From Marivirga atlantica (lineage in GTDB: Bacteria > Bacteroidota > Bacteroidia > Cytophagales > Cyclobacteriaceae), in assembly GCF_016734805.1 (NCBI RefSeq), contig NZ_JAERQG010000004.1, positions 310,001 to 374,000 on the forward strand: a stretch of DNA of 64,000 nt. The letters are read 5' to 3'. Below the pieces are notes generated by a model. That model did no database searches. It was given only the letters and a program-made list of their open reading frames with translations, and was not told the DNA's origin. Of the stretch, positions 39,029-61,727 are shown piece by piece. Numbering within the stretch: position 1 is the stretch's first letter; every line of letters starts with the position of its first letter. The position numbers and the translations under genes are program-made.

Positions 39029-41332
39029 CTATTTAGTAAGACTGAAGTCAGCTTCTAAACCTTCCGCTGAACTTGGCCCCACAAATACTTTGAAATCACC
39101 CGGCTCTGCATAGAAACTCATATCCTGATGATAAAAAGCCAGGTCATCAGCAGTTAAACTGAATGTAACTATTTTACTTTCACCCGGAGCCAGTTCAATT
39201 TTTTGAAAGCCTTTCAGTTCTTTAACAGGTCTTGTAATAGAGCCCACCAAGTCTCTGGTGTAAAGCTGTACCACTTCTTTCCCTTTACGATCACCTGTAT
39301 TAGCAACCTCCACAGACACTTTTAATGTCCCATCCATTGAGATTGAATCCGCGCTTAATACCAAGTTTCCATAATCAAAATTGGTGTAGCTCAAACCATA
39401 ACCAAAAGGATAAAGCGGCTCGTTGGAAACATCCAGATAATTGGACTTAAATTTTTGAAACCATTGTCCATCAGGCAGCGGACGTCCCGTATTTTTATGA
39501 CTATAATAGATTGGTACTTGCCCTACATTCTGTGGCCATGTCATAGTCAATTTCCCTGAAGGGTTTACATCTCCAAAAACTACATCAGCAATGGCATCAC
39601 CCGCTTCGCTACCAGCAAACCACACATTTAGGATAGATGGCATATTTTCATCTTCCCATTTTAAAGCCAACGGTCTTCCTGTAAATAAAACAGTAACTAC
39701 CGGCTTGCCCGTTTTTAATAACGCCTTTAACAAATTGCGTTGAGATTTCGGTAATTCAATATCTGATCTACTTGAACTTTCACCACTCATTTCTGATGCT
39801 TCCCCAACAGCAGCTATAACAACATCTGCTTTTTGTGCCGCCTGAACCGCTTCCTTAATCATAGCCTCTTCAGAGCGGTTATCTCTGTGCGTATTTTTGC
39901 CGAAAACGCTGAATCTTTTTTCCAATTCAGGGTCAGAAACGAAATTGGCTCCTCGTGCATGAATTATATTCGCCTGATCGCCAATAGCATTTTCAAGACC
40001 TTTACGCAAAGAAATCGCCTTGTCTACCTGGCCTGCTACACTCCAGGTACCATTCATATTTTCTTTATTATCGGCCAAAGGGCCAACCAGCGCTATGGTA
40101 CCGGATTTTTTAATCGGTAAAATATTGCCTTCATTTTTTAAGAGCACAAATGATTGGGCTGCGGTTTCTCTCGCTGTCTTCCTGTTCTTCTCGGAAAATA
40201 TTTCCTGCTTACCTCTTTCTACATCACAATATTTATAAGGATCATCAAACAAACCCAATTGGTATTTCGCTTCCAGCATTCTTCGGCAAGCTTTATCAAT
40301 ATCAGCCTCAGTTACTTTACCCTCTTCTAAAGATTTCTTAAGTGTGGTAAGAAATCCTTCTCCTACCATATCCATATCTACACCTGCCTTTAAAGCTAAG
40401 GCAGAAACCTGCTGCAGGTCACCCATTCCGTGCGCCATCATTTCATTGATAGCCGTATAGTCGGTCACTACAAATCCATCGAAACCCCATGCTTCACGGA
40501 GAATATCATGCATTAGCCATTTATTGGCACTGGCAGGAACGCCATCTATTTCATTGAAGGATGTCATAACACTACCTACACCGGCATCAACGGCTGCTTT
40601 GTAAGGAGGGAAATAGTCGTTGTACATTCTTAGTCGGCTCATGTCCGTAGTGTTGTAATCTCTGCCAGCTTCGGCTGCACCGTAAAGAGCGAAATGCTTC
40701 ACGCAAGCCATGATAGTATTAGGATCAGCCAAATCTGTCCCCTGATAACCTTTCACCATTGCCTTGGCAATCTGTGCCCCTAGATAAGAATCTTCACCCG
40801 ATCCTTCAGAAGCTCTACCCCAACGAGGATCGACAGAAATATCTGTCATGGGTGAGAAGGTCCATGCGATGCCATCAGCACTTACTTCTTTGGCAGCAAC
40901 TCTTGCCGATTGCTCTATTAAGTCCATATCCCAAGTACAGGAAAGCCCTAAAGGAATAGGAAAAATGGTTTTGTAACCATGGATTACATCCATACCAAAT
41001 ATTAGCGGAATACCATGTGGTGATTGCTCAACAGCTATCTTTTGCACTTCTCTGATTCGCTCAGCAGACTGAATATTGAATAATCCTCCTACTTTGCCTT
41101 CCTTAATGCTTCCTGCAATATTAGAGTTGGCGGCTTCTCCGGTAGTAAAGGCTCCGGAAGTAGGTAAATTCAGCTGGCCGATTTTTTCATCTAAACTCAT
41201 TTCATTCATCAATGAGTCTATAAAGGCGGTTTGGTCATTACCTTCAGTTGATTTATTTTCTGAAGGACTGCATGCCACGATCATTGAAAAAGCAGCAGCA
41301 GAAATTATGGTTGTAAGCGATCTGGTTATCAT
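39029..41332 (-). CDS. bglX: GH3 beta-glucosidase lipoprotein, BglX-like
   Basis: From ATG 41330-41332, one base after the upstream stop, it encodes 767 residues; a longer frame to 41380 would bury the signal. Lipobox Cys is at 21 (MIVAC). The GH3 N-domain has KHFALYGAAEAGRDY and the nucleophile Asp291 in FVVTDYTA; the second domain (ALVGPLADN) and the C-terminal FnIII-like domain (LPDGQWF region to the VFVGPSS end) are present. It would cleave beta-linked glucose disaccharides. With the two GH144 genes upstream, sophorose-type beta-1,2 oligosaccharides are a likely substrate. Confidence 0.93.
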   Translation of the reverse strand: MITRSLTTIISAAAFSMIVACSPSENKSTEGNDQTAFIDSLMNEMSLDEKIGQLNLPTSGAFTTGEAANSNIAGSIKEGKVGGLFNIQSAERIREVQKIAVEQSPHGIPLIFGMDVIHGYKTIFPIPLGLSCTWDMDLIEQSARVAAKEVSADGIAWTFSPMTDISVDPRWGRASEGSGEDSYLGAQIAKAMVKGYQGTDLADPNTIMACVKHFALYGAAEAGRDYNTTDMSRLRMYNDYFPPYKAAVDAGVGSVMTSFNEIDGVPASANKWLMHDILREAWGFDGFVVTDYTAINEMMAHGMGDLQQVSALALKAGVDMDMVGEGFLTTLKKSLEEGKVTEADIDKACRRMLEAKYQLGLFDDPYKYCDVERGKQEIFSEKNRKTARETAAQSFVLLKNEGNILPIKKSGTIALVGPLADNKENMNGTWSVAGQVDKAISLRKGLENAIGDQANIIHARGANFVSDPELEKRFSVFGKNTHRDNRSEEAMIKEAVQAAQKADVVIAAVGEASEMSGESSSRSDIELPKSQRNLLKALLKTGKPVVTVLFTGRPLALKWEDENMPSILNVWFAGSEAGDAIADVVFGDVNPSGKLTMTWPQNVGQVPIYYSHKNTGRPLPDGQWFQKFKSNYLDVSNEPLYPFGYGLSYTNFDYGNLVLSADSISMDGTLKVSVEVANTGDRKGKEVVQLYTRDLVGSITRPVKELKGFQKIELAPGESKIVTFSLTADDLAFYHQDMSFYAEPGDFKVFVGPSSAEGLEADFSLTK

Positions 41333-41333
41333 A

Positions 41334-42122
41334 TTATTTACTTTTTGAAAATAGCCACGACATAAACTCTGGTTCAGCAAATGCCGGGTCCCAACTATTG
41401 TGATTGGCCTCAGGATATAATGAGAATTTCACATTAGCTCCTTCAGCTCTCAAAGCCTGATACATCTTTTCAGAATGTGCAGGGTCTACTATATCATCTT
41501 TTGCTCCATGAAAAATCCAGAAAGCCACCTGATCAGCATATAATGAAGCATCATCAGGGTTTCCTCCTCCACAAATCGGCATGGCCGCAGCAAAAAGCTT
41601 AGGTCTTCTTTTTACAATTTCGAAAGTCCCCATCCCTCCCATTGAGAGGCCTGCCATATAAATTCTGGATTGATCGGTTGTAGCTAGCTGTTTTAATGAA
41701 TCCATCATAGAAAGCACCAGCTGCATAGCTTTAGTTGGTGGACCTTCCGGTGAAAAATCAAAACTTCTTTTGCCAGCCTCATTTCTTGTTACTGATACAT
41801 TTGACCAATAATCTTCTTTGGGGCATTGCGGAAAAACTACTACTGCCGGATATTTCTCTCTGTTCTCTTCTTGCAGAAATAAGGAAGAGCCATGTACTAA
41901 TTGCTTTTTGTTGTCATTCCCTCTTTCACCAGCTCCATGTAGAAAAAGCACGAGCGGATAAGTTTTATCACGGTCAAAATTTTCAGGATACAGTATTCGA
42001 TAGAGTAGCGTATCACCATCAGAAATGAAAGTTTCTCTTTCAAATAACTCCTTATCTTGAGCACGTAAAGTAATGCTCAGACAAAAAGCTATCAGCGTTG
42101 ATATATAAATCTTAATCTTCAT
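41334..42122 (-). CDS. Secreted esterase, prolyl-oligopeptidase/PHB-depolymerase-like alpha/beta hydrolase
   Basis: A 262-residue protein with a signal peptide (ends LRAQ, 22). HGAGERG (62-68), GLSMGG (158-163, Ser160), HGAKDDIVD and EANHNSW provide the triad. It closely resembles the C-terminal half of the DUF5689 fusion at the head of the locus. It probably removes acyl groups from the glycan in the periplasm. Overlaps the GH144 gene by 11 bases. Confidence 0.9.
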   Translation of the reverse strand: MKIKIYISTLIAFCLSITLRAQDKELFERETFISDGDTLLYRILYPENFDRDKTYPLVLFLHGAGERGNDNKKQLVHGSSLFLQEENREKYPAVVVFPQCPKEDYWSNVSVTRNEAGKRSFDFSPEGPPTKAMQLVLSMMDSLKQLATTDQSRIYMAGLSMGGMGTFEIVKRRPKLFAAAMPICGGGNPDDASLYADQVAFWIFHGAKDDIVDPAHSEKMYQALRAEGANVKFSLYPEANHNSWDPAFAEPEFMSWLFSKSK

Positions 42123-43611
42123 AGCTGAAACCTAGTTTTTCTAATCCTTTCTGTACTTCGGGAACCTTAGCGAATAAATCCCACACAAAGCCTGATCTGT
42201 AATTTTCAATCATGACTGGAATGGGTCCCTGATCAATTGCCAAATAGCGCGGTAAATACCAATCTGCTTCAAAGCTGAATGCATCATAAGGGCCATATTT
42301 ACCTCTTAAGCTATCGAGCGATGGTTGATACATAAACTTTAAGAATTTCATGCTTTCAGCCGGTGTATAAGGGAATGAAGAAAGCGCAGCAGTTGGTGAA
42401 ATCACACCCAAATCTCTGCTTGGATTATGACCTGCATAACCTCGCATTGAATAGCTTGATGTTAATCCCCAACAATTTTCACCATAGCCTTCGTATTCTT
42501 TCGGATTATCAACACAATATCTGTAATGAATCAGCGCATGGTTTTGATTAAGCTTCCAGTAATCGCCATACTGATCTTTTAGCCCTTTAGGGTTCAAGCC
42601 CAAATATGAATAATGCGCCCAAAATAATGGTCCGACAGGGTCTTTACTATGCTCATAATGATCTAAGATCGTTGGCAGATCATAAAAGGTGGTATCATTG
42701 GCAATCGCCCCTGATCTAGCCCAGCCTTCCGTATAAGCCGCTTTTGAGATGGGATGTGTTGGTGATGATGCCGCCAGAATGTACATGATTAAACATTCAT
42801 TATAACCACCTACAGCAAAGTTCATATCCCAGCCATAGTTGGGCGACCAATGCCAATAGAGTACATCTTTTCCTTGTGTGTACCAATCCCATTCAACTGC
42901 TTCCCAAAGTGTATTAATTCTACCGGCTAGGGCTTTCTCCTGTTCATTTCCATCAGAGAAATATTGGCGAACTGCCAAAAGACCCTGCATTAAAAAGGCT
43001 GTTTCCACTAAATCGCCCCCATCATCTTTTTTACTGAAAGGTTTTACTTTTCCTGTTTCACCATTTAGCCAATGCGGGTAAGCTCCATGAAAACGATCTG
43101 CCTTTTCAAGAAAAGACACCATTTTATCAAATCGATTAAATCCTTCCTCCCTGGTAATGAACCCTCTTTCTATGCCGACCAAAATGGCCATCAACCCAAA
43201 GCCTGTTCCGCCTGTAGTTACTATGTTTTTATCATTAGAAGGATAGATATTATCCAAATGAACCCTTTCACAAGCCAAACCTGAATTTGGCTCAGCACCT
43301 TCCCAGAAATAGTTAAAAGTCTGGTATTGTACCAGGTTGAGTAATGAGTCGTCAGAAATACTCAATTCAACTTGGGTGGTGTTATCATTAGAAACTTCTG
43401 AGCTTTTCTCCGAGCTCTTTGTATGCTGCTGACAGGCTACTAAAATTAGAAAAGAGATTCCCATCAAAATAAAGAGAATCGATCTTCCCGCTTTAAAATG
43501 ACACTTTGAAGGATCTATAGTTCCTTCTAAGTGCTTATCTCTGTATCCTTTAGTCATTTCTGACGAATTCCCCTCTTGAGAGGGGTTAGGGGTGTGATTC
43601 TTCATAATCAT
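42112..43611 (-). CDS. GH144-type (glycoamylase Pfam) glucanase lipoprotein; N-terminus altered by repeats
   Basis: Up to 499 residues. The catalytic region, about 85-495, carries the PF10091 pattern: TFNYFWEGAEPNSGLACER, GGTGFGLMAILVGIERGFITREEG, PHWLNGETG and IDQGPIPVMIENYRSGFVWDL. GH144 members studied in Chitinophaga are endo-beta-1,2-glucanases. The lipoprotein h-region (SILFILMGISFLILVAC) begins only at about residue 44. Residues 4-14 are encoded by a copy of the 29-bp DUF559-cassette repeat and residues about 27-37 by a second palindrome, so the native start seems displaced; ATG at 43611, 43605 or 43557 are candidates. It overlaps the DUF559 gene by 26 bases. Confidence 0.85.
   Translation of the reverse strand: MIMKNHTPNPSQEGNSSEMTKGYRDKHLEGTIDPSKCHFKAGRSILFILMGISFLILVACQQHTKSSEKSSEVSNDNTTQVELSISDDSLLNLVQYQTFNYFWEGAEPNSGLACERVHLDNIYPSNDKNIVTTGGTGFGLMAILVGIERGFITREEGFNRFDKMVSFLEKADRFHGAYPHWLNGETGKVKPFSKKDDGGDLVETAFLMQGLLAVRQYFSDGNEQEKALAGRINTLWEAVEWDWYTQGKDVLYWHWSPNYGWDMNFAVGGYNECLIMYILAASSPTHPISKAAYTEGWARSGAIANDTTFYDLPTILDHYEHSKDPVGPLFWAHYSYLGLNPKGLKDQYGDYWKLNQNHALIHYRYCVDNPKEYEGYGENCWGLTSSYSMRGYAGHNPSRDLGVISPTAALSSFPYTPAESMKFLKFMYQPSLDSLRGKYGPYDAFSFEADWYLPRYLAIDQGPIPVMIENYRSGFVWDLFAKVPEVQKGLEKLGFSYED
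43502..43533. repeat. Palindrome inside the 5' end of the GH144 gene
   Basis: CACTTTGAAGGA (43502-43513) pairs with TCCTTCTAAGTG (43522-43533), 11 of 12 positions, around an 8-base loop. It lies in the unusual N-terminal extension, outside the conserved protein, and is probably a separate extragenic-type element now read as coding. Confidence 0.55.
43568..43596 (-). repeat. Left inverted copy of 29-bp DUF559-cassette repeat
   Basis: Exact inverted copy of the sequence at 43986-44014. It contains a 7-bp perfect palindrome (CCCCTCT/AGAGGGG). It supplies the last codons and the TAA of the DUF559 gene and codons 4-14 of the GH144 frame. Confidence 0.9.
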
Positions 43612-44079: not shown

Positions 44080-46056
44080 TTAATAAGTAAATCCAAGTTT
44101 GTTAAGTCCATCCTGCACATCAGGATCGCTCATGTATAGATCCCAGATTAAGCCTGTTCGGTAATTTTCAATCATAATGATGATTGGCCCCTGATCAATT
44201 GCCAGATAACTATTAGCATACCAATTCTGCGTTACATTATACGCATCATGAAAGCCATACTCACCCCAAAGTTTATCTCCCATTAAATAATAGAAGTGTT
44301 TGATCGCTGCCATCGATTCTTCAGGTGTATAGGGAATAGACGATATGGCTGCAGTTGGCGTGATAGTACCTATGTCATTGGTAGGCGAATGAGCCGTATA
44401 GCCATTGTAAGTATCGCTGGCGGTTAAGCCCCAGGCATTTTCTCCATAACCCACATAATTTTGAGGATTGGCGATACAATAGGCTCTGTTGATTAATGAA
44501 TGAGCAATATTCTGTTCCATGTAATTGGCGTATTGGTCTTCAAGATTTCTTGGGTCCATTCCCAGGAAAGAATAATGTGCGAAGAAAAGTGGACCACCAC
44601 GATCATAGCCAAGAGGTAATTGATAACCATAATAAGTTGAACCATTTACCATTCCTCCATTGCTTGCCCAGCCCTCTTCATACACTTGTTTAGTAATTGG
44701 ATAAGTTGGAGATGAAGCAGCTAAGGTATAAATAACCAAGGCCTCATTCCATCCTCGGATTTTCAGATTCTTCTCAAAATCGAAATTTGGTGACCAATGC
44801 CAGGTGAGCACATTGTCTCCCTCCTGTTGAAACCAAGTCCATTCAACTTCTTCCCACAGTGTGGTGATTTTTGAAATGATCGCAGCTTCTTCAGTAACAT
44901 TACCATCAAGATATTGTCTGACTGCGAGCAGCCCCTCAATCATAAATGCTGTTTCTACAAGATCGGCTCCATCATCATTGGCGCTAAAAGGTATGGTTTC
45001 CCCAGTGTTACCATTCATCCAATGCGGCCATACGCCATGAAAACGATCAGCATTTTCTAAGAAATTAATGATGGTCGAAAGTCTTTGAACACCTTCTTGC
45101 CGGGTAATGAAACCCCTTTCAATTCCCACCAAAATAGACATAACTCCAAAGCCCGAACCACCAATGGTTACTGTGTTCCCTGAAGTATTTCTCTCTCTGG
45201 CTAAGCCACTCACCGGATGTCCAAAATCCCAGAAGTACTTAAATGTTTGCTCCTGAACTTTGGTTAATAAGGCATCATCTGAGATTTCAGGAAAATCGTA
45301 GGTGGAGTCTATTTGGGTGTAGAATTCCTTTGTAAAGCCTTCAAATCGAAGATCAGTTGCACTTCTAAGTTCATCAGAAATCTCAAAAGTATATTTATTT
45401 AAGGGCTGTGCTTCTCCACTAACAGTTAAAGAAACATTTTTATGATCATTCGATAAACTTAGCTGCGATGACAGTGCACTACCAAATCTATTTTTTACTG
45501 TAAAGAATTGTTGAATTGCTCCTACGTTTTGCAGTGAATCAGAAAAACTTAATTGAATCGTTGGGGCAAAGCCTACATTTTGAATTCTACGACTTGAAAA
45601 CAAATCGTTATCTGCTAATGTGGCACTGAGTAAATTAAAACTACCTTGTTCCGTAATAAAGGAATATGAGGCGCCTGGAAACGCACTATTATTTACCGAG
45701 GTTATTTCACCAATTAAAAGAGTATAGCTTATAGCCCGTGGTAGAAAGTTAGAAGGAATTATTGATATTGTTTTATCATTGTCAAGATAGGCGTACGACA
45801 CATCAACCAAGTCGCCAGAATTATTCCTAAGTTCTAGATTTGATTCCGCAGAAGACCTATCTAGCTCTTCTGAGAAGGTAATGACAATATTTTGATCTGC
45901 TGGCACTTCTTGTTCAGGCTCATTTGGACTTAAGCTAGTTGTACCAACACGAATACTTTGCAACCTTAATATCTCATTTTGAGCATCAGGCGTTTCTTCA
46001 TTGCAGGAAAGAAGTAGGAAGGAAAGTAGTAAAATTAAGGGACTTAGATGTCTCAT
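44080..46056 (-). CDS. GH144-type glucanase lipoprotein with N-terminal Big_5 Ig-like domains
   Basis: A 658-residue lipoprotein (Cys18, LLLSCNEE). About 30-260 holds two bacterial Ig-like (Big_5) domains with the PADQNIVITFSEELD and TIQLSFSDSLQN motifs. About 265-655 is the GH144/glycoamylase domain, clearly similar to the next gene: TFKYFWDFGHPVSGLARERN, GGSGFGVMSILVGIERGFI, PHWMNGNTG and YTAHSPTNDIGTITPTAAISSIPYTPEE. Likely a surface or periplasmic endo-beta-1,2-glucanase. The pair may be a duplication with division of labour between outside and periplasm. Confidence 0.9.
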   Translation of the reverse strand: MRHLSPLILLLSFLLLSCNEETPDAQNEILRLQSIRVGTTSLSPNEPEQEVPADQNIVITFSEELDRSSAESNLELRNNSGDLVDVSYAYLDNDKTISIIPSNFLPRAISYTLLIGEITSVNNSAFPGASYSFITEQGSFNLLSATLADNDLFSSRRIQNVGFAPTIQLSFSDSLQNVGAIQQFFTVKNRFGSALSSQLSLSNDHKNVSLTVSGEAQPLNKYTFEISDELRSATDLRFEGFTKEFYTQIDSTYDFPEISDDALLTKVQEQTFKYFWDFGHPVSGLARERNTSGNTVTIGGSGFGVMSILVGIERGFITRQEGVQRLSTIINFLENADRFHGVWPHWMNGNTGETIPFSANDDGADLVETAFMIEGLLAVRQYLDGNVTEEAAIISKITTLWEEVEWTWFQQEGDNVLTWHWSPNFDFEKNLKIRGWNEALVIYTLAASSPTYPITKQVYEEGWASNGGMVNGSTYYGYQLPLGYDRGGPLFFAHYSFLGMDPRNLEDQYANYMEQNIAHSLINRAYCIANPQNYVGYGENAWGLTASDTYNGYTAHSPTNDIGTITPTAAISSIPYTPEESMAAIKHFYYLMGDKLWGEYGFHDAYNVTQNWYANSYLAIDQGPIIIMIENYRTGLIWDLYMSDPDVQDGLNKLGFTY

Positions 46057-46122: not shown

Positions 46123-47430
46123 TTATGGCTTTTCTGCATTATAAAGGTTAAGCACATCTTCAGAAGAATAAGATGCATCAAAAATTCTAAAGTCATCTAA
46201 CATGCCTTTAAAGTGATTTGAGGTCGGTAAATCAAAATTACCAAATCCTGTATCTTGCCAAAGTTCACCTCTACGTGATTGTACCCATCCAAAAGCAAGA
46301 TCTGGGAAAACATTAGGTTCTTCACCCGAATATTTCCATCCAACGCAATCTTCTTGTGGATGTGGAGCATATTCATTGTAATCTTGTTCTTTCATAAGCT
46401 TACCATCAATATATATGGAAGCAACTAAAGAAGGCGCGTCATAAGTAAATACTATATGTTTCCAATTACTTACAAGTACCGCTGAAAGACCACCTTGATC
46501 CGACAAATCTTCTTCATAGGTGTGGCCTCTCCAACCACCTGTAGCATTATAAATTCCATCACCATTAAAACTGAAGCCTTCACCTCTAGTATAAGGGTCT
46601 TCTCCTTCAGGCTCTATTTCCCAGAAAGTGGCTAAACTAAAATTATTTGCTGAACCTGAAGATTCCATTCTAAAACCATAAAATGCTCCTAAACCAAACA
46701 CAAACTGACCTGCCGGACCTGTACCATCTGCATTTAAGTTATTAAGAGTATCAATATTCATCCATAGACTTATGGTCCAACTACTATTCTCTTTCATTAA
46801 ATCAGCAGCATCATTTACTTCTATGATACTAGCATCACCATCAAACAGAGCTGTACTTGAAGCTTCATCATGCCTGTCAGTTACATACTCTATATTAAGT
46901 TCAGTATCGGCATCGTAAGTGCCTGTTTCATCAGTTGCATCTCCATCAAACTTCCAGAAAGCCAATTGATTCTCTTCTTTCGGAGGTACTACTGGCGCTC
47001 TACCACCTGTTTTAAAGCTTCTGCTTGTTGCTGTGAGTGACCCACCAGCTGTTGATGAAACTTCACCTAATGACAGGCTAAAATTTGTTCCTCTCGGAAG
47101 CTCTTCGGAAACAGTAGCTACTACATCCATTCCATTTACAGCTAGATCATAAGTAGCTCCTTCAATATTAACAGAGCTTTGAGAAACAGTAGTTTCATCT
47201 ACTTCTGCACTAAATGTAATTGTTATTACAGGATTAACTGGAACACCTTCTGCAACAGTTGCTCCATTCAAATCAATGGTTGTTTCTTCACCACTTTTAA
47301 CATCGGTACCTGTAGCAGTAATTGCTGTTACAGTAAGCGCTGCTGGTTCATCGTCTTCATTATCACAACTAACCATAAACAAAACACCTGTTATTAAAAC
47401 CAGGTTAAATAAATGTTTGTACTTTTTCAT
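46123..47430 (-). CDS. SusE/F-position surface lipoprotein with Big_5 and LamG domains
   Basis: A 435-residue lipoprotein (Cys22, FMVSCDNEDDEP). Residues about 33-145 form a Big_5 Ig-like domain; about 155-435 a LamG/concanavalin-like jellyroll (LAFWKFDGDATDETGTYDA at its start, FKGMLDDFRIFDASYSSEDVLNLYN at its end). It lies right after SusD, where glycan-binding surface lipoproteins are usual, so binding of the target polysaccharide is inferred. Confidence 0.85.
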   Translation of the reverse strand: MKKYKHLFNLVLITGVLFMVSCDNEDDEPAALTVTAITATGTDVKSGEETTIDLNGATVAEGVPVNPVITITFSAEVDETTVSQSSVNIEGATYDLAVNGMDVVATVSEELPRGTNFSLSLGEVSSTAGGSLTATSRSFKTGGRAPVVPPKEENQLAFWKFDGDATDETGTYDADTELNIEYVTDRHDEASSTALFDGDASIIEVNDAADLMKENSSWTISLWMNIDTLNNLNADGTGPAGQFVFGLGAFYGFRMESSGSANNFSLATFWEIEPEGEDPYTRGEGFSFNGDGIYNATGGWRGHTYEEDLSDQGGLSAVLVSNWKHIVFTYDAPSLVASIYIDGKLMKEQDYNEYAPHPQEDCVGWKYSGEEPNVFPDLAFGWVQSRRGELWQDTGFGNFDLPTSNHFKGMLDDFRIFDASYSSEDVLNLYNAEKP

Positions 47431-47464: not shown

Positions 47465-48949
47465 TTACTCGTAATTAGGATTTTGTGTGATCCTTCTTTG
47501 TGAAATATCAATTTCAGACTGCGGGATTGGAAAAAGTTCGTGCTTGCCTTCTACAAAGCCTAAAGGGCCAAGAATAGTAGAAGCTCTATCAGTTCTTACT
47601 AAATCCCAATACCTGAGCCCTTCAAAAGCCAGCTCATAGTTTCTTTCATCTTCAATCAAAAGTCTCAAAGTAGCTTGATCAGTTGCGGTTATATCAGGTA
47701 AAATATCGGTATTTCCTGCTCTGGCTCTAGCCCTTACCTGATTTAAATAATTCAAGGCAACATTTGGACTCCCATTTTCATTAGCTGCTTCAGCGGCCAT
47801 CAGCAACACATCCGCGTATCGAATAATACGTTGGTTGTGACCAAAGGACTCTTGCGCAGTTGTACCAGGAGTCCACACTTTTTGATTATAGCATTCTATT
47901 TCAACAATCTGGCCATCAACTCTAGTTGTATCGGTTGTTGCATCATCACCTAAAATCTCAATACCGTCTAATACCTCTCCCAAGAAAATGACACTTGCAT
48001 CCAATCGAGGATCTTCATTATTCTGCATTTCGATAATCCATGGATAAGCTGGTCTTCCAAATCCCCAGCCTCTATTTGGTGTACCTCTCACTCCCCAGGT
48101 ATTTGCATATTGATTGCCTCCATCTCCAAAACCAAAAGGTAAGGCCGGAACTTCCCACACGGATTCAACCCCACCTTCACTTTCAACGTTAAAAGCATCT
48201 TCAAAATCTGGTTCAAGACTATATTGACCTGAATTAATCACTTCTTCAGAGTATTGTTGTGCTAGAGGAAAATCGCCTAAATACAGGTAAAGTCTAGCTA
48301 ATAACGCCTTTGCTCCACCCCGGGTAACTCTTCCTAAATCTTCAGCAGCATAGTCAGACTTTTCAGGCAAGTTTTCCACTGCAAACTCTAAATCAGGAAT
48401 AATCACATCCTCCCAAATGATTTGCGCATCGGTTCTAGTTAGATCAAGTGGAGGATTTATTTCTAATACTAATACTGCATCACCAAAAGCACGAACAAGA
48501 ATAGAGTAAAAATAGGCTCTCAAAAATCGAGCTTCAGCTACGTATCTAGTTCTGAGCTCCTCATCCATAGTAATCTTTGGAACTTCAAGAATCACTAAAT
48601 TACTTTTTCTTATTCCTTGATAAAGTGTTGCATACCATCTTTCCATTGCAGGATCGAATGCGTCAAACGTAAAATCTTCGAAAACCGCTGTTGCGGCACC
48701 ATCTCCTGCACTACTTCCTTTGGTTACCTGATCTGTCATAATATCCAGCAATGGAAATCCACCAGCATTAAGGTTCCATTGTCTAAGACTATTATAAGCT
48801 CCATTTGTAGCTAATAAAGCATCATTTGCAGTTGCTGGAAATAGCCCTTCAGTTGTTTGGCTAAGCGGTGGTTTTTCTAGAAAATCTTCATTACAAGAAA
48901 AAGTTAAGAAAAACAGTAAAATACAAATACTAATATTTAAATATCTCAT
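47465..48949 (-). CDS. susD: SusD/RagB-family glycan-binding lipoprotein
   Basis: A 494-residue lipoprotein (Cys19, LTFSCNEDFLEKPPLSQ). TPR-rich SusD fold: LLATNGAYNSLRQW, YVAEARFLRAYFYSILVRAFGDAVLV, GGAKALLARLYLYLGDFPLAQQYSEEVI and the C-terminal LLIEDERNYELAFEGLRYWDLVR with FPIPQSEIDI. It would form the lid of the SusC transporter directly upstream (2 bases between). Confidence 0.95.
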   Translation of the reverse strand: MRYLNISICILLFFLTFSCNEDFLEKPPLSQTTEGLFPATANDALLATNGAYNSLRQWNLNAGGFPLLDIMTDQVTKGSSAGDGAATAVFEDFTFDAFDPAMERWYATLYQGIRKSNLVILEVPKITMDEELRTRYVAEARFLRAYFYSILVRAFGDAVLVLEINPPLDLTRTDAQIIWEDVIIPDLEFAVENLPEKSDYAAEDLGRVTRGGAKALLARLYLYLGDFPLAQQYSEEVINSGQYSLEPDFEDAFNVESEGGVESVWEVPALPFGFGDGGNQYANTWGVRGTPNRGWGFGRPAYPWIIEMQNNEDPRLDASVIFLGEVLDGIEILGDDATTDTTRVDGQIVEIECYNQKVWTPGTTAQESFGHNQRIIRYADVLLMAAEAANENGSPNVALNYLNQVRARARAGNTDILPDITATDQATLRLLIEDERNYELAFEGLRYWDLVRTDRASTILGPLGFVEGKHELFPIPQSEIDISQRRITQNPNYE

Positions 48950-48951
48950 AA

Positions 48952-51936
48952 CTAAAAGTTTACATTTAGTCCTACACTATACGTTTTGGTAACCGGATAA
49001 CGTCCTAAGTCGATAACCCCGTCTAAAGGATTACCCGTACCAATATCAGGTGAATATCCTGTATATTTTGTCCAGGTTATCAGGTTAGTACCTCTAACAT
49101 ATATTCTGACCTGACTCGCCTTTATTTTGGATATTAAGTTTTGTGGAAAATTATAACCCAGTGTTAATGTTCTAAGTCTGAGGTAAGAAGCATCTTCTAC
49201 AAAATAATCTGAAGGAGAAAAATTAACCCCTCCTTGAGTAGCTCGAGGATCAGTATCAGAAGTACCCTCACCAGTCCAACGATCTAGAAATTTATCCTCA
49301 TAATTTAGGATAGAAAATCTGAGAGCTTGTTTCCCATTGTATACATCTACTCCAGTTTGCCCTTGAAAATCAGCAGACAGGGAAATACCCTTCCAACCAA
49401 CCGATCCTCCAAAACCAAAAGTTAAATCAGGAATAGAATTGCCAATTACTGTTCTGTCTTCAGCGTTTAAAACACCGTCATTATTTACATCTCTGTAAAT
49501 AAAGTCGCCTATTCCCTGAGCTGATAAGCTAGGAAATTGATTGAGTTGTTCAGAATTTTGAAATACTCCCTGTACTTCATAACCATAGAAGAATCCTACG
49601 GGGAAACCAACAACTGTTCTAGCTACTCTTTGACCATTACCCAAATCACCTCCAATAATTACCGAGTCAGCACCAAACCCCTCTCCTAAGTCTAACACCT
49701 CATTCTTGATAAATGATCCTAATACATTTAGAGAATAATTAACATTCCCAATTTGATCCTTCCAACTTGTATTAAATTCAAATCCTTTATTCTCAACATT
49801 GGCAACATTATATCTTATTTGTTGAAAAGCACCAATACCCGTATATCCTAATGGGGTAAGATTCACCAGTATGTCGTTAGTAGTCTTATTATAATAGTCA
49901 AGTTCAATTACCAACCTATTATTTAGGAACTCTCCATTAATCCCAAAATCGTACTGTACCTGCTCTTCCCACTGAAGATTTGGGTTGCCAGCAGAAGCAA
50001 ATGAGGCTCCTGGATTTAATGTTTCATTCTCGCCAAATACAGCACCTTGTCCGGTACCAATAGTAGAATACTGATTGTTAGCTGGTATTTTCTCATTCCC
50101 AACAATACCCCAGCTAGCCCTCAGTTTTATATTCTCAACAAAATTTGTTTGAGGGAAAAAAGATTCTTCAGATAAATTCCAACCTAAGGCGAAAGATGGA
50201 AATACGCCATATCTATTATTAGCTCCAAACTTTGAGGATCCATCTCTTCTATATGTGGCAGTAAATAAATACTTATCCATCAAGGAGTAATTTACTCTAG
50301 CCAAAATTGAAACAATTGCTGTTTCTGATGCATTGTTACTAACATTTTGTAGTAATGGATCTCCATCTCCAGCATTGATATACCAAAACTCTTCCTCTTC
50401 TCTTAATAGGTTCTGCGCAGATCCATTTAAGAATTCACTTCTGGTTTGCTGTGTTGTATAGCCAGCTACTGCATTAATTCTGTGAATCCCATTAAACTCT
50501 TTGTTGTAAGATAATATGTTTTCAAAAATCAACTGATAAAAGTCAGAATAACTCTGAGAAATATCACTCGTTTCATTTTGTTGAAGTGGTGCTACAAAGA
50601 ATTCAGGTGTGAATGACTTAGTTTTTGACAATGATCCATTGAACTGAAAAGATGTTTTAAAAGAAAAGCCATCTAAAAAAGAAAATTCAGCATATAAATT
50701 ACTAACCGCTTCTTGACGAGTTGTCTTACTGTTTTGATATTCAATAGCTGCCAACGGATTAGCACTACCCCTAACCTCTGCAAAAACTTCATTTCCTAAA
50801 GAATCAGTTGTAAAAGGTTCGTCAATCGGGAAAGCCCTTAAAGCAGTAGTAATAACACCAGGAGCATTACTCTTGGTAGTAGATGCAAGAGATAAATTAA
50901 GCCCCATTTTAAAAGACTTACCTACTTTATAATTGTTATTAAGCTTTGCCGTAATTCTTTCAAAATCTGATTTTGGTAAAATCCCATCTTGATTAAAATA
51001 ACCTAGACTAAAATAGTAGTCTGACTTTTCAGAAGCTGAACTTACTGAAGCATTATAATTATTGATAGGAGCTAAATCTTCAAATATTAAATCTTGATAA
51101 TCAACATTTGGTAAAACATCAAGATTATTATAAGTACCTGGAGCAAACTCATTAACATAAGTTGCGAATTCTCTTCCATTCATCACACCAATTTTATTCG
51201 CTATTGACTCCCAACTTTGTTCAGCAGAAAAATTAACTCTTACAGTTCCTTTTTCTCCTTGCTTGGTGGTTATTAAAATAACACCATTACTTCCCCTAGA
51301 ACCATAAATAGCAGTAGCTGAAGCATCTTTTAACACTTCAACCGATTCAATATCATTTGGATTCAAGAAGTTTATACCACCATTAAGAATTACACCATCT
51401 ACCACATAAAGAGGGTTGTTATCATTTAAAGTACCTATTCCTCTTAGTCTAACAACTGGCTCTGACCCTGGATCACCACTAGTATTGGAAACCTGCAAAC
51501 CCGAAACTTTACCTTGTAAAGCTTGTACAGGATTAGCCGCTGGTACTTTAACAAGTTCCTCACTTTTTACTGAAGCAACAGAACCAGTCAAATCACTTTT
51601 TCTCACAGTACCATAACCTACCACTACTACTTCAGAAAGTGTTTCAACATCTACTTGAAGTTGAATATTAATTTGACTCCTTCCATTTACTGGAATAGTT
51701 TGCGTTTTATATCCTATAAATGAGAATTGTAGTTGTGCATCGGAACCAACCCTTATCGAATAGTTACCATCTAAATCTGTTGTTGCTCCGTTTGTGGTAT
51801 TCACTACTTTAATTGAAACTCCAGGGATAGGATCTCCATTTTCTGCATCGGTTACAGTCCCAGTCAATAAATCTTGAGCAGTAATCATATAACTGCCTAG
51901 TAGAAAAATAAGAATAGTTAGATAAAGTTTTTTCAT
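48952..51936 (-). CDS. susC: SusC/RagA-family TonB-dependent transporter
   Basis: A 994-residue outer-membrane transporter. Signal peptide ends MITAQ (21); a carboxypeptidase-regulatory-like domain follows at about 25-105 (TGTVTDAENGDPIPGVSIKV), then the TonB-box-like VVVVGYGTVRKSDLTGSV, the plug with LRGIGTLNDNNPLYVVDG and SVEVLKDASATAIYGSRGSNGVI, and the 22-strand barrel to the terminal VGLNVNF. It imports oligosaccharides captured by SusD. It lies 37 bases after the esterase fusion gene. Confidence 0.96.
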   Translation of the reverse strand: MKKLYLTILIFLLGSYMITAQDLLTGTVTDAENGDPIPGVSIKVVNTTNGATTDLDGNYSIRVGSDAQLQFSFIGYKTQTIPVNGRSQINIQLQVDVETLSEVVVVGYGTVRKSDLTGSVASVKSEELVKVPAANPVQALQGKVSGLQVSNTSGDPGSEPVVRLRGIGTLNDNNPLYVVDGVILNGGINFLNPNDIESVEVLKDASATAIYGSRGSNGVILITTKQGEKGTVRVNFSAEQSWESIANKIGVMNGREFATYVNEFAPGTYNNLDVLPNVDYQDLIFEDLAPINNYNASVSSASEKSDYYFSLGYFNQDGILPKSDFERITAKLNNNYKVGKSFKMGLNLSLASTTKSNAPGVITTALRAFPIDEPFTTDSLGNEVFAEVRGSANPLAAIEYQNSKTTRQEAVSNLYAEFSFLDGFSFKTSFQFNGSLSKTKSFTPEFFVAPLQQNETSDISQSYSDFYQLIFENILSYNKEFNGIHRINAVAGYTTQQTRSEFLNGSAQNLLREEEEFWYINAGDGDPLLQNVSNNASETAIVSILARVNYSLMDKYLFTATYRRDGSSKFGANNRYGVFPSFALGWNLSEESFFPQTNFVENIKLRASWGIVGNEKIPANNQYSTIGTGQGAVFGENETLNPGASFASAGNPNLQWEEQVQYDFGINGEFLNNRLVIELDYYNKTTNDILVNLTPLGYTGIGAFQQIRYNVANVENKGFEFNTSWKDQIGNVNYSLNVLGSFIKNEVLDLGEGFGADSVIIGGDLGNGQRVARTVVGFPVGFFYGYEVQGVFQNSEQLNQFPSLSAQGIGDFIYRDVNNDGVLNAEDRTVIGNSIPDLTFGFGGSVGWKGISLSADFQGQTGVDVYNGKQALRFSILNYEDKFLDRWTGEGTSDTDPRATQGGVNFSPSDYFVEDASYLRLRTLTLGYNFPQNLISKIKASQVRIYVRGTNLITWTKYTGYSPDIGTGNPLDGVIDLGRYPVTKTYSVGLNVNF

Positions 51937-51973: not shown

Positions 51974-53488
51974 TTATTTAGAATTTGACCATAACCAACT
52001 TAAAATTGAATCGGACTCATTTAAGATGTAGTTCCATTCATGACCTTTTCCCTCAGCCTCAAAATATTCAGCTTGCTCGTTTGGCAATTCATTTAATGCT
52101 TCAATTAAGTCTCTGCTATATTTTGGAGGGACAACCCCATCATTACTTCCATGATATAATCGGATAGCTATATCATTACCATAAGTTGATACTAAAGATG
52201 AATCATGTCCTCCAGCGATAGAAATAGCTGCAACTGGCAAATCTGGGGCATAATAGAGGTATTCCAATGTACCTATTCCTCCCATTGATAAGCCCATTAC
52301 ATAAATTTTATTCGGGTCAGCATCACCAGATGCTATTAGTGATTTCGTTAACTCTATGACTAAGCCCATTGGCTCATTTGGATTGTCCTCAACAGGAAAA
52401 GAAAAAATTCTATCTCCGCCAGAATCATCTATTTCTCTTCTCGACCACATAAACTCTGGTGGGCATTGTGGATAAATCACAATGGCCGGATATTCTTCTC
52501 TCGCCTTCTGATTATTAAAGACCTGAGTCCCATAAGCTAGTTGACTTGTGTTATTAGTTCCGCGCTCTCCAGCTCCATGTAAAAATATAACTAATGGATA
52601 AGACGTCTCAGAATCATGATTTCTAGGCAGCATCATTTGATAAGGAATAGAGGCTCCATTAAATTCAAAAGTCTTTGCTTGAAAAAGTGAGTGTCTTTTA
52701 CTTGTAAAAGCTAAATTTTCTAAAGCATCTGGAACGATAGTGAATGCATTATTTTCAACTAAAAGTATACCCTCAATATTGCCACTTTCATAGGGTACTT
52801 CAAAATCAGACAAACTAGAATTCTCACTAATACGCAAGCCAATTTGGTTGCCCTCATCGTCTTGTAAAATACTTTCTTCTAATTCAGCTATTTTTTGCCC
52901 TACAAGTGACTCATTAAATTGTACACCGTATACTTTAATGCTTTTCTGATTATAAGAGTCATTCAAATCCGATAAATCAGTGACAATATCAAAATATATA
53001 GAGTTGTCTGTACTTATATTTTGAGATCGTTCTGCAAGCTGTTCAATTTCAATAGATGTGTTATTATTATCCCCAAAGACTTGCTGTTTTTCAGCATCAA
53101 AGAAAAGGCCTGTTAACAATAGAAAGATTTCATCACCTTTATTAAAATTATTATCAGATGCGCTTCCGGAAATGTTAATAGATAAAGGTGTGCTACCCTC
53201 TTGAAGATATATGATACCTTCTATGTTACCGGTGTTATCCGTTGAAGCTATTACTACTTGAAGAATAACGGTATCTTCTATTAAACCATTTGATGTAAAT
53301 GATTGAATAAAATCATCCAAATCATGAGTTTTTCGCCAATTAATCTCAATAGTAGTTTCTTCCTCATCTATGATATTTGGTTCTTCTTCAGAACAACCAA
53401 CTAATAATAAAAACAAGAAAGTAGATAACAAAAAGACACTTCTGCTATTGAAAATTCGATTGCTTTTAACAGGATAATTATAAACCAT
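51974..53488 (-). CDS. Lipoprotein fusion of DUF5689-like domain and esterase
   Basis: A 504-residue lipoprotein (Cys32, LLVGCSEEEP). About 45-265 resembles DUF5689-type OB/binding domains of Bacteroidota surface lipoproteins (VVIASTDNTGNIEGIIYLQEG and GDEIFLLLTGLFFD). About 275-504 is an alpha/beta hydrolase closely like the 262-residue esterase nearer the end of the locus: FLHGAGERGTNN, GLSMGGIGTLEY, HGSNDGVVPP and GKGHEWNY. It is the first gene of the PUL operon, behind a candidate operator. Probably a surface esterase that deacylates incoming polysaccharide. Confidence 0.85.
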   Translation of the reverse strand: MVYNYPVKSNRIFNSRSVFLLSTFLFLLLVGCSEEEPNIIDEEETTIEINWRKTHDLDDFIQSFTSNGLIEDTVILQVVIASTDNTGNIEGIIYLQEGSTPLSINISGSASDNNFNKGDEIFLLLTGLFFDAEKQQVFGDNNNTSIEIEQLAERSQNISTDNSIYFDIVTDLSDLNDSYNQKSIKVYGVQFNESLVGQKIAELEESILQDDEGNQIGLRISENSSLSDFEVPYESGNIEGILLVENNAFTIVPDALENLAFTSKRHSLFQAKTFEFNGASIPYQMMLPRNHDSETSYPLVIFLHGAGERGTNNTSQLAYGTQVFNNQKAREEYPAIVIYPQCPPEFMWSRREIDDSGGDRIFSFPVEDNPNEPMGLVIELTKSLIASGDADPNKIYVMGLSMGGIGTLEYLYYAPDLPVAAISIAGGHDSSLVSTYGNDIAIRLYHGSNDGVVPPKYSRDLIEALNELPNEQAEYFEAEGKGHEWNYILNESDSILSWLWSNSK

Positions 53489-53613
53489 ACCCTAATTAAG
53501 AAAAAAATTAACATCACTTCCAAGTCTAAATCTTAAAAAGATTCAATTGTATCTTTTTAAAATCATTAAAAAACAACTCGTTTTTTGCGCTTTAAAAACA
53601 AGCATTAATAGAC

Positions 53614-53651
53614 TAAAATTAAATATTGACAGAATTATGCAAACGTTTGTC
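53614..53651 (-). promoter_or_regulatory. Candidate PUL promoter with CAAACGTTTG palindrome
   Basis: On the minus strand TTG (53642-53640) is followed after 18 bases by TAATTTTA (53621-53614), close to the Bacteroidota TTG/TAnnTTTG promoter. A perfect 10-base palindrome CAAACGTTTG (53640-53649) overlaps the upstream element and resembles LacI-family operators. No LacI-type gene is in the window. The remaining AT-rich gap 53489-53704 shows nothing else clear. Confidence 0.45.
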
Positions 53652-53704
53652 TCGTTTAAAAAACAATAAAAAAAATTTCGGTAAATTATTGAAATAATAA
53701 TATT

Positions 53705-55543
53705 TCACTGAATCTCTTCAAATTTCAACGACCTATCGTAACCGTAAGAAAGTAAGGCATTCAAGTAGGATTTACCATTGCTCTGAATTTCATCATCAAC
53801 CTTCTTTCTGAATTGCCAAATAGTATTCCTTCGCATTTCAAGAACTTCGGCCATTTCGTCAAGTGTGTACTTATCTTCATTGAGGTATGAATACACTATA
53901 AAGAATGCCTTATGGAGTGGAAATTTTAATCCTTTAAATACAGTAAAAGCGGTTGGGCTTTCATTATAGCCGCACTTAGTACATCTGCGCGAATAATTTT
54001 TCTTATTTTCAATATATTTCTCATTATCGCACTTTTGACAAGTGTAGCTGCTTTTCCATTTGAAGTCAGCAAGAATTTCAAGACATTCATCTGAACTACT
54101 AAATATTTCAGAGAACTCATCAAAATCGAGGTTTTTATGAGACAAACGCTCTTTCTGAATCTTCTTAATATTGTTTTGAAGTCGCCAATTGTCTAAATCA
54201 AGAATTGAATTGATTTCAGCTATTTCATTATACTGTCTTGAAATCTTATTGTTGGTTTCCTCCAGTAGTGAGTTCTTTTCACGCAAGTCTTCCGTTCTTT
54301 CAGCAACTTTACGCTCAAGGTCTTTATTAATCTTATTGATAAGTGCGATATTCTGTTCATGCTGAGTCACAATTCTTTTCAAGGCTTTATCACGATTGGC
54401 CTTTAGTATTCTAACCCTATCAGAAAGTGCATACGTCAGGAATAACATCTCCAATATAAAACAGATATGTAAACTGTAATAAGTAAGTATACTGAAAGGT
54501 ATAACAGACTGCATTACCAATGCTTTTAATATAAAACCAAGAAACAGTATGCCATAAGCCAGAACGAAGAACCTGGCAGGTTTATAACCCCTAATAAGCA
54601 CTGCTATACTGGATATAAAAATGAGAGAGAGTGGGATAATCTCAATATTCCTTAGCTGAAATAACTGATGATCAATAAAAAGTGCCACAATAAAGAATGC
54701 TATCCTGGCCACAAAGACCATTAGAAGTAGCTTATACAGTTTGGGAGCCCTTTGTTTAACATTCAGAAACTTAAGCGAAAATAATATAGACCAAAAAATG
54801 ATTGAGAACAGTGCTATTCCGTAGGCAAACTGATTTAATATAGGCTGATTAGGCCACAGATACTGATAGGCAATTCCATCGATACACATGGCATATAAGC
54901 CAACACTCAAAATGTAAAGAGTATAATAAAGGTATTTGCGCTCCTTGATGGCAAAAAATATAAGCACGTTGTACAATGAGATAATCAGGATCATACCGTA
55001 GAAAAGCCCATACAACATATACTCACTAAGTGTATATTGAATAAAGCGATCGATTCGCTTGATGGCTATTCTGATATCGGCATATTGAGAATTTTTTACT
55101 TGAATGTAAGCTTGATAGTGGTTGTTGCTTTGAAGGATTACCTCAAAGTTCTTATGATGAATGTTTTTCTGGTGGAAAGGAAGCGCATCACCCATCCTGA
55201 TTTCATCAAATCCGGAACTATCTTTAGCTATATATACATTAATACTATCTATAGATTGGTCATAAAACTCAAGTACATAATTACCATTATATTCGGGCAA
55301 CTCCAGATCGAGCTTTACCCAATAGGTTGAATGCTTATTATAATTTTCAGGCTTAAATTCTGGATTTAGTTGAAACCTTTTTTGATACTGAGGGCTAAGT
55401 ATTTGATCAAAATCAAGCTTATTCGATTTATCTTCAAAATGAGCTAAATCGGAAATTGTAAGGATAATCTCCTGATCGGTTTTATCAACTTTTAAAGGTG
55501 GTTGAAAGAAAAATGTTAGAAAATGAAAAAATACTAAAAGCAT
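53705..55543 (-). CDS. 7TM-DISM receptor fused to IS1595-type transposase zinc-ribbon/HTH
   Basis: A 612-residue membrane protein. About 22-165 is an extracytoplasmic 7TMR-DISMED2-type sensor domain; about 172-375 contains seven membrane helices; about 380-450 is a coiled coil (AERTEDLREKNSLLEETNNKI). The cytoplasmic end, about 472-590, matches the N-terminal region of IS1595-family transposases: FDEFSEIFSSSDECLEILADFKW, a zinc ribbon of Cys502, Cys505, Cys521 and Cys524, FTVFKGLKFPLHKAF, and an HTH at about 556-585 (TLDEMAEVLEMRRNTIWQFRKKV). No DDE catalytic domain follows. A membrane-bound transcription factor for the adjacent PUL is the best inference. It is a separate gene, 78 bases after pyrF. 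Confidence 0.82.
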   Translation of the reverse strand: MLLVFFHFLTFFFQPPLKVDKTDQEIILTISDLAHFEDKSNKLDFDQILSPQYQKRFQLNPEFKPENYNKHSTYWVKLDLELPEYNGNYVLEFYDQSIDSINVYIAKDSSGFDEIRMGDALPFHQKNIHHKNFEVILQSNNHYQAYIQVKNSQYADIRIAIKRIDRFIQYTLSEYMLYGLFYGMILIISLYNVLIFFAIKERKYLYYTLYILSVGLYAMCIDGIAYQYLWPNQPILNQFAYGIALFSIIFWSILFSLKFLNVKQRAPKLYKLLLMVFVARIAFFIVALFIDHQLFQLRNIEIIPLSLIFISSIAVLIRGYKPARFFVLAYGILFLGFILKALVMQSVIPFSILTYYSLHICFILEMLFLTYALSDRVRILKANRDKALKRIVTQHEQNIALINKINKDLERKVAERTEDLREKNSLLEETNNKISRQYNEIAEINSILDLDNWRLQNNIKKIQKERLSHKNLDFDEFSEIFSSSDECLEILADFKWKSSYTCQKCDNEKYIENKKNYSRRCTKCGYNESPTAFTVFKGLKFPLHKAFFIVYSYLNEDKYTLDEMAEVLEMRRNTIWQFRKKVDDEIQSNGKSYLNALLSYGYDRSLKFEEIQ

Positions 55544-60818: not shown

Positions 60819-61727
60819 TTATTGCAAAGTATAAGTAGTTACACCTCTTTCACCGTAACCAGTTGCTTCCCAATAAATTGTTATAGTATTTGCATTGGGA
60901 TCATAGTTACTAGTTGGCTGAGTAGCGTCCTGTACAATTAATCCACCAAATTGATCACTAACAGTACCCCAAGTTATCTCATTACTACTCGGATCGATAG
61001 TTATAATTGCATTTCTAGCGCTTGCTCCATAAAGATCAGCATAACCAATCCCCCATAATCCACCAGTAATGTCAACCAACGGATAAGAGCCCTCAACAGT
61101 ACAGTCAGCTAAACCTAGCGCCTCCTCGTAAGAATAGGTTACTGGACCTAAGTCTGAAACCAGAACATCTCCGTCAACCGCATAAAGACCTGCTAAGTCA
61201 CCACAATCATTATCAGAAATTTCCACGTAGAATTCTTTTCTAATAGAGCCTCTACCTCCAGCAAAAGATAATCCTGCACTTTCAACACCTGTAGCCCCAT
61301 TTAAAGTAACAGTTAGCTCTTTTGTTCCGTCCTGAACAAAGTTTTCAGGAAAAGAAATGGTGAATTCTGCTTGATCAGTTACAAACTCATTCGGCTTAGC
61401 AGGTAAAAATGGTATTCGTATTACCGCTCCATTTTCATCAACGGATTCTAAATACTCACTGCTTATTGTAAAATCTGTACCATAAACTGCAGTTCCTTCA
61501 AAACTCAAGCTAGCTAATAAATCCTCACCTCCAGATATTGGAGCTTGAATAGTAACTGCCTGAGGAAAATTAGAACCCTCAGCCAATGCAGTACTATCAG
61601 GAGTATTAGCACCAAATTGAACAAATAAATCCGTTTGTTCTACTCCAGCCAATGGATCAGCTACATCTTCACAAGAAGCCAATACAAAAACGGTTGCAAT
61701 TGCGTATATTAATTTTTTCATATTCAT
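60819..61727 (-). CDS. Surface lipoprotein of second Sus-like locus, Calx-beta-like
   Basis: A 302-residue lipoprotein (Cys19, VLASCEDVADP). Residues about 30-175 have the Calx-beta look: FPQAVTIQAPISGGEDLLASLSFEGTAVYGTDF followed by ENFVQDGTKELTVTLNGATG. The last about 120 residues are beta-rich and unassigned. The start codon overlaps the SusD-like stop as TAATG, indicating translational coupling (a second ATG is at 61721). Likely a glycan- or peptide-binding accessory. Substrate unknown. Confidence 0.78.
   Translation of the reverse strand: MNMKKLIYAIATVFVLASCEDVADPLAGVEQTDLFVQFGANTPDSTALAEGSNFPQAVTIQAPISGGEDLLASLSFEGTAVYGTDFTISSEYLESVDENGAVIRIPFLPAKPNEFVTDQAEFTISFPENFVQDGTKELTVTLNGATGVESAGLSFAGGRGSIRKEFYVEISDNDCGDLAGLYAVDGDVLVSDLGPVTYSYEEALGLADCTVEGSYPLVDITGGLWGIGYADLYGASARNAIITIDPSSNEITWGTVSDQFGGLIVQDATQPTSNYDPNANTITIYWEATGYGERGVTTYTLQ

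Follow-up and report, generated by a model that had tools for sequence, protein, structure and literature searches.

The receptor gene studied here lies in a window of 64,000 nt (the whole stretch of Marivirga atlantica DNA that was analysed) and is followed on the same strand by the genes of a PUL (Table 1). Its open reading frame coincides exactly with the tabulated interval and starts with an ATG at 55543. A sulfatase and a GH43 are also encoded at the PUL locus. The two PF10091 proteins are the only ones in their genome. They match the solved endo-β-1,2-glucanase 5gzh with E values of 9.5e-186 and 7.8e-153, from which their activity is predicted. Both resemble the characterised CpSGL, named as the founding member of GH144 (PMC12102758), across the catalytic domain, and on this likeness they are putative GH144 enzymes. 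A second SusCD pair is found near dihydroorotate dehydrogenase and ftsK, with the SusD-like gene at 61727–63214 and the SusC-like gene past the window end (C9:373224–376271).

Table 1. Features of the receptor gene, the predicted operator and the adjoining PUL (window positions)
Feature	Position	Strand	Basis or remark
7TMR-DISM receptor-regulator gene, 612 aa	53705..55543	-	
7TMR-DISMED2 periplasmic sensor domain, residues 33-160	55064..55447	-	RetS periplasmic-domain fold (predicted)
7TMR-DISM_7TM membrane domain, residues 174-376	54416..55024	-	Pfam, AF2
Signalling-helix coiled coil, residues 377-468	54140..54415	-	Homologue conservation, AF2
Captured IS1595-type DNA-binding module (binding predicted), residues 470-593	53765..54136	-	Profile, tree, AF2
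Cys4 zinc ribbon, residues 483-526	53966..54097	-	Pfam
Three-helix HTH, residues 543-589	53777..53917	-	AF2, generic HTH matches
Distal predicted operator box TTATTGTTTTTTAAACGAGACA	53648..53669	-	
Proximal predicted operator box TGCTTGTTTTTAAAGCGCAAAA	53583..53604	-	65 bp from distal box, same orientation
DUF5689 + esterase-like gene, first gene past predicted operator	51974..53488	-	
SusC-type TonB-dependent transporter	48952..51936	-	TIGR04056, 903.6 bits
SusD-type glycan-binding lipoprotein	47465..48949	-	
Laminin-G-like, weakly Big_5-like protein, slot between SusD and GH144-like gene	46123..47430	-	
GH144-like enzyme (PF10091)	44080..46056	-	
GH144-like endo-β-1,2-glucanase homologue (PF10091)	42112..43611	-	5gzh E 9.5e-186
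GH3-family enzyme	39029..41380	-	

The earlier note on this DNA described a sensor, seven membrane helices and a coiled coil, then a Cys4 zinc ribbon and an HTH like those of IS1595 transposases, without a catalytic domain, and each of these parts is borne out. A Pfam search of the single protein finds a 7TMR-DISM_7TM domain (E 9e-45) with a DISMED sensor, here DISMED2 (E 7e-25), the combination that marks 7TMR-DISM receptors. The full-length AlphaFold2 monomer model has a pLDDT of 86.5 and a pTM of 0.64. In this model one continuous helix runs from residue 357 to 468, and the pLDDT falls below 50 at 460–468, a low-confidence stretch that could be hinge-like. The S-helix, a coiled coil that joins sensor to output, is marked by an ERT signature (PMC1592074). 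The coiled coil of the receptor holds this position, and its R416 is kept in 39 of 41 homologues and T417 in all 41. Of 151 non-independent ORFs, 87 match a stricter ERT text pattern, one that overlooks the RTED of the receptor itself.

Structure prediction of the C-terminus, one of the checks that the earlier note had proposed, yields two helices, a zinc-ribbon hairpin and a three-helix HTH (pLDDT 90.6). All 41 homologues keep Cys502, Cys505, Cys521 and Cys524. The protein stops soon after the module, with a median of 21 residues following it in the family ORFs. The catalytic model DDE_Tnp_IS1595 (PF12762) has no match in the receptor (Pfam) and none in its genome at E ≤ 0.001, and the receptor thus lacks the DDE domain of a whole IS1595 transposase. 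A search of 148 genomes of the same bacterial family, with at most eight candidates scored per genome, lists 90 places besides the receptor with 25–65% identity. Because these relatives align through residue 581 or beyond, the architecture is not due to chance.

The architecture recurs beside PULs, as a survey of the best 80 of at least 567 confirmed relatives makes clear; these were obtained by a scan of genome contigs, and the sample is biased toward close relatives. Among the matches listed, Marivirga aurantiaca and M. sericea come nearest. In 69 of the 80 loci SusC directly follows the receptor gene, and in 72 it is the first or second gene downstream in the same orientation; SusD is present in 62. 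With 11 SusC above cut-off in the 4.19 Mb of the receptor's genome, the linkage is far above chance. The recurrent order is receptor–SusC–SusD–(another protein)–GH144, and the opposite flank varies. The locus sets L037–L076 and L132–L211 are not independent: L157 is the same DNA as L059, and L133 (M. sericea) the same as L038. Four of the best 80 loci (L134, L139, L146 and L206) have no SusC in the listed neighbourhood, and in L166 it is found only on the other, divergent side of the receptor; in all five, the gap after the receptor holds no site of at least 12 bits for the motif described below. More distant receptors (~25–40% identity) adjoin other SusC genes, GH3 genes or neither, with a SusC match in 14 of 32 divergent loci; the 32 include a standalone protein and a repeat of L074. 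The PUL-linked architecture is not a local oddity. Two loci (L046 and L049) have a receptor orthologue with no SusC nearby; it adjoins a second, weakly receptor-like gene (21–25%) and a GH3-like gene, and no operator motif in its gaps reaches 11 bits.

GH144-like genes occur in 67 of the best 80 loci and point to β-1,2-gluco-oligosaccharides as the probable ligand. The alternative that survives best is that the receptor senses something else, such as another glycan, a sulfated sugar, calcium or an envelope signal. We regard it as a serious competitor, if the less probable one. The sulfatase and the GH43 at the locus would suit it, as would the binding of calcium by the DISMED2 of LadS, described in a review (PMC7695008). 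No GH144-like gene was seen in the remaining 13 loci, several of them on short contigs. β-1,2-gluco-oligosaccharides are the ligand assumed in what follows.

A 22-bp motif, TcaaTGTTTTTtAagCGtaAAA, which is new here, lies in the gap that follows the receptor gene and often occurs as two direct repeats 64–66 bp apart. It was derived by EM from 73 gaps, all different, comprising 72 from the best 80 of at least 567 loci and the window gap, which leads to the DUF5689-esterase gene. Loci with no SusC within two downstream genes (L134, L139, L146, L157, L160, L166, L169 and L206) were left out. The motif has an information content of 17.9 bits, versus 9.1 bits in Markov-resampled sequence, with 30 EM starts for the real gaps and 12 for this control. 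At 12 bits it occurs in 62 of the 73 gaps on which it was trained, versus 0.016 per kb elsewhere, a background counted outside the gaps in the first 40 gap loci. In five-fold cross-validation, 59 of the 73 gaps, when held out, contain a sense-strand site of at least 10 bits, versus 4 on the antisense strand and 1 in the reversed control, and 39 contain the 64–66 bp pair (reversed control 0). Pair spacing was evaluated in the 70 gaps whose best site scores 8 bits or more; 41 of them have a partner at 64–66 bp, and every other non-overlapping 3-bp bin holds at most one. A model-free self-similarity of the gaps also peaks at lags of 65, 66 and 64 (6.5, 6.1 and 5.5; mean 2.4, sd 1.1). Elsewhere in the 4.19-Mb genome, the pattern drawn from the two window boxes is matched exactly nowhere and at one mismatch once, on contig C6.

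This geometry resembles that of SusR, whose motifs form direct repeats with a spacing of 67 or 77 bp, a layout read in terms of dimers with the monomers on one DNA face (PMC3878776, in excerpt). The same DNA-binding receptor might instead repress the PUL until its ligand comes. The window boxes start 181 and 116 bp ahead of the next start codon, and such positions could suit a repressor, their placement relative to the promoter not being established. That excerpt describes SusR, which shares the operator geometry, as an activator, and we think repression improbable. Activation is thus the polarity we adopt for the receptor.

In a more distant clade of receptors with a diverged head, the box has diverged as well. 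All six gaps of this clade with SusC next (L067, L068, L227, L228, L252 and L258) hold exactly two forward [AGC]CGTAT[CT]A boxes, 76–91 bp apart, and their reverse strands have none; ~0.11 per kb would be expected by chance at 40% GC. The pattern was picked by eye from the six gaps where it was later counted, so its strength lies in pairing and orientation, not in mere presence. One box is found in L257, with another ORF ahead of SusC, and none in L259, whose receptor and SusC genes are separated by an 81-aa ORF. The part AAGCGT is common to the main motif and the distant-group box. Such diverged boxes fit what a shared, slowly diverging DNA-binding head would predict.

The paired boxes might also be bound by another factor, with the receptor head contacting protein or RNA, or working elsewhere. 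Small zinc ribbons are able to bind RNA or protein, and these gaps are also enriched in another class of motif (see the last paragraph). However, the motif also stands ahead of the esterase gene when that gene follows the receptor, with a 16.6-bit site in L157 and L160, neither of which was used for training. The distant clade again has two forward copies of its own box, and zinc ribbon and HTH are both retained, as in transposases. We consider another factor at the boxes unlikely and prefer binding by the receptor's own head.

The kinship of this head with IS1595 transposases was traced with a C-terminal profile (A1) built from 39 rows of a 41-row alignment (A2). It was searched against 395 genomes of the phylum, of which 48 matched at E ≤ 1e-8, against 395 genomes of the class, of which 27 matched at 1e-20, the two samples overlapping, and against ORFs from the fetched loci. 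This search, also proposed in the earlier note, reaches a DDE-bearing IS1595 transposase (L090) at E 8.6e-38; its IS1595 model score is 142 bits, and its frame ends at the contig end. Another IS1595 transposase, from the same bacterial family (L114), scores 137.7 bits with the profile and 75.8 bits with the DDE model. The Zn_ribbon_IS1595 match of the receptor is E 3e-4 and 21.1 bits in the single-protein Pfam search, under the cut-off of 25.4; the same stretch reaches 25.8 bits, just above it, in a scan of the receptor's own genome. Among the family C-termini, 38 of 39 match this model (PF12760) at E ≤ 0.01, the best at 4e-11. The receptor thus carries the IS1595 zinc-ribbon/HTH module.

A tree of 81 domains and 123 columns places 47 receptors on one side of a branch with support 94/81, not starred, and the IS1595 transposases form successive outer branches around this clade under a midpoint root. 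Its rows come from 99 loci scanned, after dropping matches short of 90 model positions and L222, a duplicate of L090. Since the 47 receptors form one clade nested within IS1595 transposases, the tree favours a single capture of the head, in the direction from transposase to receptor, though with few columns and a midpoint root it is no proof. That convergence alone, of a zinc ribbon and an HTH of a common kind, produced the likeness is scarcely credible, as the match spans ~120 residues including flanking helices and non-ligand residues and the receptors nest among the transposases, even with the single-protein Pfam score under cut-off and no clear solved structure of an IS1595-type head found for comparison. 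We therefore retain homology. The operator shows no resemblance to the terminal repeat AGAGGTCAGTAnTTA of the nearest complete IS1595 element examined.

Other relatives of the module were met in these searches. One genome of the same class (G305; L086 79–1074, L214–L221) has eleven profile matches. The nine that were read are diverged paralogues of 311–339 aa with the same zinc ribbon-HTH and an IS1595-like C-terminus, where the customary VDE and TD motifs were not seen. Nucleotide similarity stretches little past these genes, which are possibly a second domestication. A standalone 137-aa zinc ribbon-HTH protein (L089 1194–1607, also L262), with neither a receptor nor a transposase domain, forms a long branch adjoining the receptor clade.

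Three Bacteroidetes-specific types of PUL regulator are described, namely SusR-like, HTCS and ECF/anti-sigma (PMC3878776; PMC10316084, both in part). The receptor shares with SusR the linkage to SusCD, the periplasmic sensor, the cytoplasmic C-terminal DNA-binding domain (its topology being predicted) and the long-spaced direct-repeat operators, predicted for the receptor. It differs in its 7TMR-DISM sensor and membrane part and in its IS1595 zinc ribbon-HTH head. Set beside SusR by description, the receptor family may work like it in layout, which is where the likeness lies. HTCS are also PUL-linked membrane sensors with a DNA-binding output and direct-repeat operators, but their repeat spacing averages 21 bp (PMC3878776), and the receptor has no histidine kinase, receiver or AraC domain by Pfam. 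With RetS, LadS and RgsP the receptor shares the DISMED2 sensor and 7TM domain, to which a coiled-coil/S-helix linker is joined here; its output, in contrast, is a transposase-derived DNA-binding module. This module is N-terminal in IS1595-family transposases and C-terminal in the receptor. The 7TMR-DISM domain is listed among those found with another DNA-binding domain, the ChiS-family DBD (PMC8092284, in part). A literature search found no paper on a fusion of 7TMR-DISM with an IS1595 head.

We propose, with a probability of roughly 70%, that the receptor is a one-component, membrane-tethered activator of the β-1,2-glucan PUL. It probably switches on the adjoining glucan-utilisation genes. 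Judging from enzyme homology, the GH144-type enzymes and SusCD would bring β-1,2-gluco-oligosaccharides into the periplasm, where they may bind the RetS-like DISMED2 sensor. The signal would pass through the seven helices to the long signalling-helix coiled coil, as the monomer model and the conserved RT suggest, and this coiled coil would dimerise the receptor. The two zinc-ribbon/HTH heads could then bind the two direct-repeat boxes, about six turns apart, which by their conservation mark a putative operator ahead of the SusCD operon. The low-confidence stretch 460–468 could be a hinge that allows both heads the same orientation; which head grips which box we infer. By analogy with SusR, the bound receptor would recruit or stabilise RNA polymerase and so turn the PUL on. 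The earlier note had read the protein as a membrane-tethered one-component regulator with a captured transposase domain. Homology, PUL linkage and the paired motif support this reading, and from them we infer DNA binding, polarity and ligand.

The receptor clearly exemplifies, in a bacterium, how the DNA-binding module of a transposase can be reused to form a 7TM receptor's head. It is a candidate regulator for β-1,2-glucan utilisation loci and comes with a directly testable predicted operator. As an activator, it would add a further class, present in many Bacteroidota, to the SusR-like, HTCS and ECF/anti-sigma regulators (PMC3878776, PMC10316084). More speculatively, and here we lean toward doubt, this may be a widespread, apparently undescribed class of PUL regulators that stems from one IS1595 capture and whose dimer pairs two boxes as a transposase pairs the ends of its element. 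If this two-site habit was indeed kept, the 65-bp code of direct repeats that SusR has in common with the receptor would represent a general grip of membrane-tethered regulators on PUL promoters, and the SusR head, an orphan, may have the same origin.

The gaps hold further features. Sites of AAACGTTT and of AACGATTG/CAATCGTT occur in 14 and 11 of the 73 gaps (those of L132–L211 and window 53489–53704; reversed control 0). They are ~20-fold and ~15-fold enriched over the rest of the loci, which suggests that a second factor may act at the same promoters. The promoter sequence TAnnTTTG at a fixed distance has hardly any exact match in the gaps. At one mismatch, a weak cluster of 18 matches in 17 gaps lies 103–107 bp after the start of the proximal box, versus a mean of 4.2 per 5-bp window, and is a possible promoter. 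Some TAnnTTTG-like octamers in the gaps of L132–L211 have TTTG ~20 bp upstream. Between the predicted operator and the first PUL gene, at 53530–53563, there is an inverted repeat with 17-nt arms, 88% complementary and without a loop.
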